Shown: piece by piece, positions 15,126 through 19,674 of the stretch
Numbering within the stretch: the first letter of the stretch is position 1
Layout of the letters: the number at the start of each line of letters is the position of its first letter
From: Deltaproteobacteria bacterium
Lineage (GTDB): Bacteria > Desulfobacterota > Desulfarculia > Adiutricales > Adiutricaceae
Reading direction: 5' to 3'
Length of the DNA stretch: 32,614 bases
NCBI GenBank assembly: GCA_031257535.1
Contig: JAIROO010000104.1
Coordinates: 1-32,614, forward strand
Made by a program: the position numbers and the translations under genes
The notes under the pieces: generated by a model
Database searches by the model: none
Seen by the model: the letters and a program-made list of their open reading frames with translations, nothing else
Told to the model about the DNA's origin: nothing

Positions 15126-15623
15126 CCACAAAAAAAAGTCCTCTTTAGAGCCTAAGCTAGTCATTTTACCAGTCGTTATCGCTATATAATATATTAGAAA
15201 ACCGCTTATCGATTTTCAAACAAAACGTTAATGATATGTTTTTTAGTGGATTTAGGGCTCTAAAAAGATATCGTCCTTTGGCTCTCCCGGCTCGTTTTTG
15301 GGTAAATGTAAGACCGATTTTCAAAGAAACCAAAAGGAGTTAACGCTTCAAACGTCGACGCGCCGAGGGGCAGCTCATCAAGAGATTTTTTTGGAAATCG
15401 TGACTTGACTTTTTCCCCACCCGTTGTCTGTCCTCTCACGCGAGACAAAAGATATTGTAGTGAGGAGAACAAACTAGAATTGCCGCCTAGACAGTAAATA
15501 CCTTGACTTTATTTAAGCTGATAGCTATATTTTTTTGGGTAGAAGGTTAAACGCCTTTAAAGCGGCTTTTGAAACTAAAAATAAGTATTTTAGCCATTTT
15601 TGGTTAGCGGCTTAAAAAAAAGG

Positions 15624-15730
15624 GGTGAACTACCGCTACCCTGAAGGGTACCGGCTTCCAAAAGGAGGTTGGTTAGGTCACAAGACTAAGGTTTGGAAAC
15701 AAACCTACGTTGGAAAGGTAATGACACCCA
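15624..15730 (+). ncRNA. Structured-RNA-like repeat, copy 1 (candidate HEARO / IscB-type omegaRNA 5' portion, truncated)
   Basis: 105/107 identical to 32390-32496. Hairpins: CCG-C-TACCC(TGAA)GGGTA-C-CGG; CTTCC(AAAA)GGAGG; AGGTTTG(GAAA)CAAACCT. Starts directly after GGTGA. Confidence 0.6.
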
Positions 15731-15782
15731 GGGTTATCGTTTTTACGGGTTTTCCCGCCAATGGCTGACTTGACATTTTAAC

Positions 15783-15862
15783 GCGGCCTTTTGAGTGACT
15801 CTTAGCCCCAAAAGGCCAGCCCTTTAGGGGTGATTTTCTTTTTTATCGCTACTATGGCCAAA
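15783..15862 (+). repeat. 80-bp direct repeat, copy A (contains perfect 9-bp hairpin)
   Basis: 76/80 identical to 16328-16407. GGCCTTTTG (15785-15793) / CAAAAGGCC (15809-15817). Confidence 0.9.
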
Positions 15863-16216
15863 ATGGGCGCGGAAAAACTTTTCTTTGGTTACATTCGGCA
15901 AAGCGTTTCGTTAAAAACTCTGGCGGAGATAGTAGCTGAAATATATAAGCCTTTTAAAAATTTTGAGAAACATAAAGTTTTTTTTGAACTCTTGTTTAAA
16001 GCCCAACCTTTAGCTTTTAATGAAGCGACGCTTAAGAGGCCAGAATTTGCTGAGATAGTTAGCGATCTTCCTTTTGTCAAACAGATAATCGCTAAAGGCG
16101 TTCTGAAAACTAACATTAAGGTGGCTCTCAATGCCCTCACCAGCGAACCGCCTTCAACTATAAGTTATATAACCCTGTTAACGGGTTTCAGCGAAAAAAA
16201 GATCTTTTTCCTCTAG
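15830..16216 (+). CDS. Hypothetical protein (start probably the ATG inside the repeat, MAKMGAEK...)
   Basis: Open 128-aa frame; no family recognised; begins inside the 80-bp repeat. Confidence 0.35.
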   Translation: MIFFFIATMAKMGAEKLFFGYIRQSVSLKTLAEIVAEIYKPFKNFEKHKVFFELLFKAQPLAFNEATLKRPEFAEIVSDLPFVKQIIAKGVLKTNIKVALNALTSEPPSTISYITLLTGFSEKKIFFL

Positions 16217-16327
16217 GATTAGCTGGGACTAGTGACCGTGACTCAGCTACTGGACCTTGTCGACGAAAAAGGCGAGCGTTTTTTCCCATCTCTAAAGACT
16301 AAAGCTTTGTCTCTTGACCCTAAAGTC

Positions 16328-16407
16328 GCGGCCCTTTGAGTGACTCTTAGCCCCAAAAGGCCAGCCCTTTAGGTGTGATTTCCTTTTTTATAGCTACTAT
16401 GGCCAAA
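16328..16407 (+). repeat. 80-bp direct repeat, copy B
   Basis: Same as 15783-15862 with four substitutions and no indels; followed by a frame interrupted by stops. Confidence 0.9.
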
Positions 16408-17113
16408 CCTTTAGCGAAAAAGGGCTGCGGTTTTTAGCGTTATAGCCAAAAACTGTTCGCCTATAGGCTCCTTTTAGTGGTCATTATCTTTAAGCGCCTA
16501 AAGCTCTTAGCGTCTAACAAGGATTATGTCCCCCGTTATAGCCCTTAGCTCTTTAGTAAGGCGACTAAAGCCATTCTTCGCTCTTTCGCCTTTTTAGTAC
16601 AATACCGTCTTTTATGGGCTATTTAATGGTTAGATTTAGCGCTCCGTTAGCTCACATGTTAGAGCCGCTATTTTGGCTTGTCTTGATCCTTCATCTGAAT
16701 ATTTAAAATTGTAACTGAACGCGCTTTGACTGTAATTCATCGTAAAACAGACGTACTTAATAAGTAGATTATCGATAATAAATCAAATTGTTAAATAGGT
16801 GGAATTTACTTATTAATATAATAATTTTAAGTACAAATATTCTGACGTTACCTTATAGTTGAAAAATTTTTTTTACAAGATTACTTTAACAATTTTCAAG
16901 TTACGTTTCGCAGGTTCATTTTTTAATTTTATTTAATGAAAAATACAATATGATAATTAGATCAATACACTATAATTAATTATATTGGTAATCTTCTTTT
17001 CCCTGTTCAGTTTATTGTATTAAGAGATCTAATTCGCAAAGAAATACTTTTTTGGATTACATTCGCAACATATCTAGCGAACGCGCTTTTTTTGGTGGTT
17101 TTATTATAATTTT

Positions 17114-18205
17114 ATGACTATAACACAAAAAATATCAGTAGTCGTCCCAGCTTATAAGTCGGCTCAGACCCTTCCGACTTTAGTCCAGGGCTTAGAGGCG
17201 ACTCTAACCGCCTTAGGCCACCCATTCGAAGTAATTATCGTCGACGATTGTAGCCCGGACGACACCTGGTCGGTTTTAAGCCAACTAGCCCAAACCCATC
17301 AGTTTCTAAAAGCCATCCGCTTAGCCCGAAACGGCGGTCAACACAAAGCTATATTGTGTGGATTTAGCCGCGTAACCGGCGATATTGTTGTCACCATGGA
17401 CGACGACCTCCAAAACCCCCCAAGTGAGATCCCTAAACTCATTGAGCCACTTTTTTCAGGTTATGATTTAGCTATTGGCTCTTATATCAACAAAAATCAT
17501 TCGACTTTTAAAAACTTAAGCGGAGCCTTTGTTGATTTTACCCAGCGCCGGATCTTTAATCTACCCGCTGATTTTAAGCTAACAAGTTTTAGGGCCATTA
17601 AAAGATTTATTATTGACAACGTCAATAAAATGAATAATTATTATCCATATATAACATCTATGCTTTTGTATAACACTAACAAATATATAAACGTTGAGGT
17701 GGAACACCACAAAAGACTGGCCGGGAAATCCAATTACAACCTCAAAAGAAGCCTGGCTTTAACCCTCAATCTTTGGCTAAACTATTCCAATTATCCCCTG
17801 TACTTTGTCGTCACTTTGTGCGTTTTGTCCTTGTTCTTAGGCTTGGGTTTCGCCGCCACGGTCGTCTGGCAGGCCTTAACTTCTGAGACGACTTCGGGCT
17901 GGGCCAGCTTAATCGTGACCATCTCGTTTTTTAACTCTTTAGTTCTGCTAGCCTTAGTGGTCCACAGCGTTTACTTGTCGCGTTTGGCCAATAGCGACTC
18001 CTCGTTTTTTATTTCTGAAAAAATTATTAATCAAGACCAGCCGACCGAAGACGACGACCAAAGGTTACAAGCTGAAGATAATTTAACGCCTACCACGCAA
18101 ATTTTGAGTCTAGATAACGATATTTCATGGTTAAAAGACGAGATATTACGACTACATAATGAAAATATTAAATTAAAAAAAGATAATTTAAAATTAAAAT
18201 CTTAA
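17114..18205 (+). CDS. Family 2 glycosyltransferase (DPM/GtrB/ArnC-like) with C-terminal coiled coil
   Basis: ISVVVPAYKSAQTLPTLVQGLE, VIIVDDCSPDDTW, ARNGGQHKAILCGFSRVTGDIVVTMDDDLQNPP; two TM segments; terminal LKDEILRLHNENIKLKKDNLKLKS. Confidence 0.9.
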   Translation: MTITQKISVVVPAYKSAQTLPTLVQGLEATLTALGHPFEVIIVDDCSPDDTWSVLSQLAQTHQFLKAIRLARNGGQHKAILCGFSRVTGDIVVTMDDDLQNPPSEIPKLIEPLFSGYDLAIGSYINKNHSTFKNLSGAFVDFTQRRIFNLPADFKLTSFRAIKRFIIDNVNKMNNYYPYITSMLLYNTNKYINVEVEHHKRLAGKSNYNLKRSLALTLNLWLNYSNYPLYFVVTLCVLSLFLGLGFAATVVWQALTSETTSGWASLIVTISFFNSLVLLALVVHSVYLSRLANSDSSFFISEKIINQDQPTEDDDQRLQAEDNLTPTTQILSLDNDISWLKDEILRLHNENIKLKKDNLKLKS

Positions 18206-18416
18206 AATAAAACTTAATTTTCACTATAACTATAAACTAGCGATCCGTTGATATTTTGTGCTGTAACTATTTTTAATAATTTTATTAAGCACCCTAAAAT
18301 ATTCATATTAAATTATTTATCCTTATCTTTAACTAATGACCTCGTATAATCATCCTTTTACATTTTTAAGGAACTTTTATATACAATATTTGTGGGTCGC
18401 TCTAAATATAAATTAA

Positions 18417-18478
18417 CTTATATAATAGTAGATCCACGCGCTTAAAATTTTAAAACAAGGGTATTTACGTGGCCATCA
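18417..18478 (+). promoter_or_regulatory. Dispersed leader module R2, overlapping the ATP-grasp GTG start
   Basis: CTTATATAATAGTAGATCCACGCGCTTAAAATTTTAAAACAAGGGTATTTACGTGGCCATCA; similar modules at 8206-8255(-), 20325-20362(-), 20408-20466(+), 20644-20700(-). Confidence 0.5.
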
Positions 18479-19674
18479 TGGCTAAAAAACTCTTAATTCT
18501 CGGGGCTTCTCTTAACCAGATCCCCGCTATCCTCAAAGCCCAAAGTTTGGGTCACTTAGTCGTGACCACCGACAACCTCCCCCAAAATCCGGGGCACGCC
18601 TTAGCCAACATCTCCTATCACTTGGACACCACCGATATCCCGGCAGTCTTAGCTATAGCCAAAAAAGAAAAAATAAGCGGCGTTCTCGCGCCCGCCACCG
18701 ACGTGGCCGTGGTCACCGCGGCCACCGTAGCCGCGGAACTGCGACTCCCTGGCCCGAACGTGCTCGCGGCCAAAATCTTAACCTCCAAGGCCGATTTTCG
18801 AGCTTTCGCCCAAACCCACGACGTCCCCTGCCCCGACTTCTGGACCTTTGACCAGCCGATTTTTCCCCCTAACGCGCCCAAAGACGGTCGCTTATTAATC
18901 GTTAAACCTAATCGTTCTTCGGGGGCTAAAGGAGTTATGGTCGTCGATGGGCCAAAAACTTTCGCCGAAGCCGCTCCTTTGGCTTTAAGTTATAGCTTAG
19001 ACGGCCGTGGCGTCCTAGAAACTTATCTCTTAGGTGGTCAGTATACGGTGGAGGGAGTTTTAGCCAACGGGCGAATTTCGCTGTCGATGATCACCATCCG
19101 CTCCACCGCTCCAAGGCCTTATGAGGCGACTTGGGCTCATCGGGTCCCTTGCGACCTAAATCAAAAGACCCAAGAGACCGTCTTGGCGACTCTCGAGCGG
19201 ATTTTTGATTTATTAGGTTATAAGGACGGCCCTTTTGACGCGGATTTTCTCAATCACAAACAAGATACGTTTATTCTAGAAGCCACCCCCCGCATAGGCG
19301 GCAACTCGCTGTCGACCCTTTTCGCCAAAGCCTTTGATTTTGACATAGTCGGCTACGCGGTAAGCGCGGCCTTAGGCGAGCCCTTTGTAATTCCACCCCC
19401 ATTAACGCCCAAACCTTTAGCCTTAGTTCTTTTAGGAGTCTTAACGGCTGGCTCGGTCGTGTGGGACCAAAACGAGGAAGCGGCTTTACGGCGAGAAAAG
19501 TGGCTAAAAGATTTAAGTTGGGACGTAAGTATTGGCGATCCGGTTAAACCCTTTATCAACGGCCGGGAACGCTTAGGCGAGGCTTTGATAGCGGGCGATG
19601 GCCCCTCAAATTTAGTCCAAAATGTATTAAATTTCGGTAGACGCTTAAACTTAAGGGCGGAGTTGGTAAATTAA
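18469..19674 (+). CDS. ATP-grasp domain protein
   Basis: MAKKLLILGASLNQIPAILKAQSLGHLVVTTDNLP (PreATP-grasp), LLIVKPNRSSGAKGVMVV, FDADFLNHKQDTFILEATPRIGGN (ATP-grasp catalytic region). Confidence 0.88.
   Translation: MAIMAKKLLILGASLNQIPAILKAQSLGHLVVTTDNLPQNPGHALANISYHLDTTDIPAVLAIAKKEKISGVLAPATDVAVVTAATVAAELRLPGPNVLAAKILTSKADFRAFAQTHDVPCPDFWTFDQPIFPPNAPKDGRLLIVKPNRSSGAKGVMVVDGPKTFAEAAPLALSYSLDGRGVLETYLLGGQYTVEGVLANGRISLSMITIRSTAPRPYEATWAHRVPCDLNQKTQETVLATLERIFDLLGYKDGPFDADFLNHKQDTFILEATPRIGGNSLSTLFAKAFDFDIVGYAVSAALGEPFVIPPPLTPKPLALVLLGVLTAGSVVWDQNEEAALRREKWLKDLSWDVSIGDPVKPFINGRERLGEALIAGDGPSNLVQNVLNFGRRLNLRAELVN

Follow-up and report, generated by a model that had tools for sequence, protein, structure and literature searches.

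Two copies of an IscB omegaRNA in the window

We analysed a stretch of 32,614 nucleotides (the window) that corresponds to contig C18 of a deltaproteobacterial draft genome (G000; 362 contigs, 3.7 Mb in total). It contains two copies of the same structured RNA, and the features discussed here are the following.

15608 to 15624, plus strand: would-be guide of an intact omegaRNA, outside the element and directly 5' of its fixed boundary; the guide role is assigned by analogy with IscB (PMC9640706)
15625 to 15735, plus strand: 3'-truncated left end of the element, the 5' half of an IscB omegaRNA (element nucleotides 1 to 111; R1, 137.5 bits; HEARO, 23.5 bits; identity to siblings)
15736 to 15781, plus strand: non-homologous sequence right after the breakpoint, with no right end recognised in searches for repeats and right ends
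32391 to 32607, plus strand: near full-length HEARO/omegaRNA comparator copy (HEARO, 74.3 bits, E = 2.7e-15, model positions 1 to 211)

As an earlier note made from the sequence had claimed, positions 15624 to 15730 match 32390 to 32496 at 105 of 107 nucleotides with zero indels. The end of similarity that the note placed at about 15730 also exists, but its exact limit is 15735, after element nucleotide 111 (best comparator, L002), and the true start is 15625, where family identity begins at GTGA (the additional 5' G at 15624 is a chance match). Up to nucleotide 111, the truncated copy is 98 to 100% identical to its siblings in the genome. Both mismatches of the pair are A/G differences, one in a tetraloop (15660) and one at 15726, and both are variants that other copies share: 15660A is common to the truncated copy and L005, and 15726A to the truncated copy and L002, L004, L006, and L007. 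Hence, the tetraloop position, taken in the note as a sign of constraint on the stems, is uninformative on constraint of the truncated copy. Over the 104 nucleotides compared with the genome siblings, the truncated copy has no private substitution, which points to a recent truncation.

The Rfam model of the IscB omegaRNA is HEARO (RF02033), with a curated gathering score of 83 bits. The copy at 32391 to 32607 matches the full model just under this cut-off, while the copy of a relative (G022:C200, L117) reaches 102.7 bits; these two matches show that the repeated block is, as proposed, part of a structured omegaRNA. Behind the omegaRNA of G022:C200 there is an IscB coding sequence, itself disrupted, and in contig C75 of our genome the same omegaRNA is followed by an IscB N-terminus, from a gene that is either broken or cut off. 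In the truncated copy only the 5' half aligns, and its score stays below the gathering score set for the full model; it is a fragment of a HEARO member, not a member.

The note had contrasted one copy with a nuclease gene and one without. This contrast reflects the position of the contig end: the last nucleotide is 32614, short of the point where the nuclease ORF should start, so that the window lacks a nuclease gene for the 32390 copy as well; judging from contig C75, that gene would lie past the contig end. Just upstream of the 32391 omegaRNA we found an ORF for an ImmA/IrrE-type metallopeptidase (PF06114; 31038 to 32105), which ends in a run of 18 A.

A family with a fixed left boundary

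Searches of the whole genome, as the note had proposed, returned 18 copies of at least 89 nucleotides and, at the edge of a contig, a 28-nucleotide stub of the left end, which makes about 19 near-identical left ends; a single 3' piece was found in addition. All 18 copies with a readable flank start exactly at GTGAACTACC, the boundary predicted at GTGA, and the 30 nucleotides upstream are unrelated among them (mean identity of 26%). A constant left boundary with unrelated flanks, the pattern of IS200/IS605-type elements, is thus present in 18 copies. Of the two observations that would have spoken against the note, neither random 5' boundaries nor an IS end with terminal inverted repeats was found; the ends resemble the subterminal hairpins of the IS200/IS605 type. 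Of 37 genomes of the family, six have related copies, and four of these six have at least 10.

Directly upstream of the omegaRNA fragment there is an intergenic repeat of 406 nucleotides (15203 to 15608), which matches the last part of contig C153 at 82% identity (G000 C153:49853-50249, L090), with an 80-nucleotide core that recurs at C9:824-904 and C300:4591-4666. The paralogous repeat in C153 was considered as an empty site and discarded, as the contig stops 16 nucleotides before the insertion point. In the congeners inspected, the upstream gene order is conserved; past the fumarase gene nothing matches, and they offered no empty site. Since the synteny of the relatives ends after the fumarase gene and the C153 repeat ends 16 nucleotides short of the site, the truncating event, whether a deletion or an aborted insertion, cannot be reconstructed.

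Right end and architectures of the element

A repeat, CGCATTCATCCGCTAGACTAAAGTCTACCGGTTTTCTGCGAAAGATTTTATAAA, marks the right end of the family. It includes the hairpin TAGAC-TAAA-GTCTA, and immediately past ATAAA the copies, without exception, no longer resemble one another. Four contigs have the C-terminus of a Y1 transposase (TnpA; PF01797, Y1_Tnp) immediately in front of this repeat, and in several contigs the right end is fused to an IscB N-terminus that breaks off near codon 33. The TnpA-joined right ends are among L094 to L097 (C332, C236, C216, and C178) and the group of L024 and L045 to L048; across these loci, one set has TnpA C-termini at the right end and another has IscB codon ~33. 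With the same right end on both, a derivative that has lost iscB seems to have been amplified. A third arrangement is that of L007 (G000 C283, L007:1151-1512), a complete, nuclease-less and MITE-like element in which an omegaRNA of about 303 nucleotides is followed by a few codons and the right end, with no iscB. Because TnpA C-termini, IscB N-termini, and L007 share this right end, one set of ends evidently serves TnpA-carrying, IscB-carrying, and gene-less derivatives, all of which would be moved by TnpA. The congener G005 has omegaRNA variants (L123, L124, L078, and L080, in C80, C45, C156, and C155) in which the region of the 5' hairpin is present twice, owing to an internal insertion of roughly 33 nucleotides.

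Both our genome and its relatives repeatedly have truncated and nuclease-less copies, which differ in where their 3' ends lie; some of them keep the right end. Judged by eye, to within a few nucleotides, copies end at about nucleotides 93, 112, 113, 148, and 195 in G014, at about 175 and 198 in G022, and at about 209 in another copy of our genome. Full-length omegaRNAs without iscB include G014:C287 and L007, and short forms are found in G014 (C164, and C286 with right-end-like sequence from nucleotide ~112).

The readable copies are, however, a biased sample. Contigs stop 114 to 119 nucleotides into the repeat, as expected for a final assembly k of 119, a value taken from the contig names (k119) of related MAGs on the premise that the same assembler produced this genome. 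Full copies are identical beyond this length and break contigs, as at 32614, whereas the 111-nucleotide copy was bridged. We asked whether the truncations at 111 to 113 nucleotides (this copy and two in G014) form a biological class and set this idea aside, since copies shorter than k are preferentially assembled through; the cluster may be no more than assembly bias.

Sequence downstream of the breakpoint

Neither the rest of the omegaRNA, nor the start of iscB, nor the family right end has a convincing counterpart on either strand of 15736 to 18800 (the best of ten strand-by-query tests gave a shuffle P of 0.03, on the wrong strand). The ORF list of the window contains no IscB or HNH ORF after the truncated copy, as the note had claimed, and with no Pfam match for the ORF at 15830 to 16216 and no convincing similarity to the iscB start in 15736 to 18800, iscB is not directly downstream. 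A pattern search for the missing 3' half gave its only exact match at 32509. Displacement of this half by a later insertion was likewise rejected, as nothing in 15736 to 18800 rises above the multiple-test level. No second copy of the segment downstream of 15735 was found in the genome, and the assembly of this genome bin contains no intact iscB.

Siblings have a right end with a subterminal hairpin; none was found for the truncated copy in a search with the known variants, which would miss right ends that have diverged or are of another kind. The best candidate within ~60 nucleotides of the breakpoint, near 15745 to 15760, matches at 11 of 12 nucleotides (TACGGGTTTTCC; shuffle P of 0.026 for one of two variants tried). 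It has neither the hairpin nor the ATAAA end, and 71 of the 2,602 window tiles score equal or higher, so it was rejected as not above background.

Two direct repeats of 81 nucleotides (15782 to 15862 and 16327 to 16407; 95% identical and 545 nucleotides apart) lie further downstream. They carry the palindrome GGCCTTTTG...CAAAAGGCC and have no copy elsewhere in the genome; an ORF of 128 amino acids (15830 to 16216), with no Pfam match, sits between them and overlaps them.

Consensus fold and covariation

For the first 111 nucleotides, we derived a consensus fold from 17 rows from four genomes besides our own. In the covariation test that the note had suggested, 24 cells were changed on both sides, compared to 6.8 in shuffles, with 96% of cells paired, and slid versions of the fold scored far lower. 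Changes on both sides affect 8 of the 29 pairs of the shared half (covariation score of 0.274 versus 0.161 shuffled), which supports an RNA fold, and the hairpin at element nucleotides 60 to 90 forms the strongest helix. The family thus has conserved 5' hairpins with covariation, and the truncated copy keeps those helices. It retains both strands of only 23 of the 67 HEARO pairs; the 44 lost include all those of the central, nexus-side stem (0 of 11 kept) and of the pseudoknot (0 of 5 kept).

Comparison with known systems

The truncated copy resembles the HEARO/IscB omegaRNA in its sequence start, its 5'-half hairpins, and its position at the left boundary of an element, and its siblings match the whole model; unlike them, it keeps only nucleotides 1 to 111 and has lost the central stem, the pseudoknot, and the 3' hairpins. 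The family has the traits of IscB OMEGA elements mobilised by an IS200/IS605 TnpA, namely a fixed left boundary, a hairpin right end, and a constant ATAAA tail, with fragments of TnpA directly adjoining this right end in our genome, but the truncated copy is without iscB, tnpA, or a recognisable right end. The comparison with PATEs and MITE-like derivatives of IS200/IS605 elements (named in PMC3119063 and PMC7290912) is similar: the family includes nuclease-less copies with both ends, such as L007, while the truncated copy has one end only.

Origin and fate of the truncated copy

Considering all of the above, it seems very likely that 15625 to 15735 represents the left end of an IscB element of the IS200/IS605 type that TnpA mobilises, and that a recent 3' truncation has spared no more than the first half of the omegaRNA. 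It belongs to this family, begins at the fixed left boundary, and breaks off at 15735; we infer that it lost its function with the truncation, by deletion or by an aborted insertion.

In established IscB/OMEGA systems, an element takes its guide from the host flank upstream of it; IscB, bound to the scaffold, cuts the empty donor again, and the element is thereby retained. By analogy, the left end of an intact element here would double as the omegaRNA, with the host sequence upstream of GTGA as its guide; the scaffold would bind IscB, and IscB would recut the empty donor site and keep the element in place. The truncated copy has neither iscB nor the right end, and both its central stem and its pseudoknot lack their 3' strands, so that very probably it makes no working guide RNA and does not move by itself. 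It is most likely an inert relic. Among the readings offered in the note, the decay product comes closest, although "decay" is too strong a word for a copy with no private substitution.

The note had also considered a MITE-like derivative, that is, a non-autonomous element with the left end and a diverged right end within ~50 to 60 nucleotides, mobilised by TnpA in trans. Siblings of this kind do exist (L007, with 303 nucleotides of omegaRNA and a right end but no iscB, and G014 C287), several contigs join a right end to IscB codon ~33, G014 has the short forms C164 and C286, the latter with right-end-like sequence at nucleotide ~112, and 15745 to 15760 weakly resembles the right-end core. At this locus, that resemblance is no better than background and comes without hairpin or ATAAA, and the downstream sequence is single-copy in the genome. 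We regard such an element as unlikely here. Recurrent left ends of 93 to 113 nucleotides in two genomes could also represent a live short form mobilised by TnpA in trans, or a short RNA that regulates IscB by binding it non-productively, although we give this little credence. A chimeric join inside the repeat might be suspected as well, given that it is multi-copy and that many siblings end at contig ends, but a repeat of 111 nucleotides is shorter than the k of 119, single k-mers bridge it, and the join would rest on spanning reads (for the assembler assumed above), which makes an assembly artefact highly improbable.

A functional orphan omegaRNA, transcribed with its guide and serving in trans an IscB made elsewhere, would fit the intact guide-proximal hairpins and the lack of private mutations, and standalone omegaRNAs reportedly occur in Ktedonobacter (Altae-Tran et al., 2021). 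The single-strand fold of 15625 to 15850 is, moreover, better than that of shuffles (z of -3.9) and offers the 5' strand of the central stem an 8-bp partner at about 15775 to 15782. This partner was found with G-U pairs allowed, with a chance expectation that we estimate at roughly 5% or more. Against such an RNA are the loss of 11 of 11 central-stem and 5 of 5 pseudoknot pairs and the fall of the HEARO score from 74 to 23.5 bits. In OgeuIscB, a change in the pseudoknot loop abolished editing, and the pseudoknot is needed for activity in the solved complex (PMC9640706). A standalone guide RNA would thus be extremely improbable, and the truncated relic remains our preferred reading.

This single copy (15625 to 15735) is of little importance in itself and ordinary, besides documenting the breakdown of such elements. 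Short-read assemblies favour truncated copies, which are shorter than the assembly k-mer, and intact IscB copies vanish at contig ends. This genome, with its heavily amplified IscB element and readable copies that for the most part are truncated or have no nuclease, can serve studies on the degeneration of RNA-guided nuclease elements.
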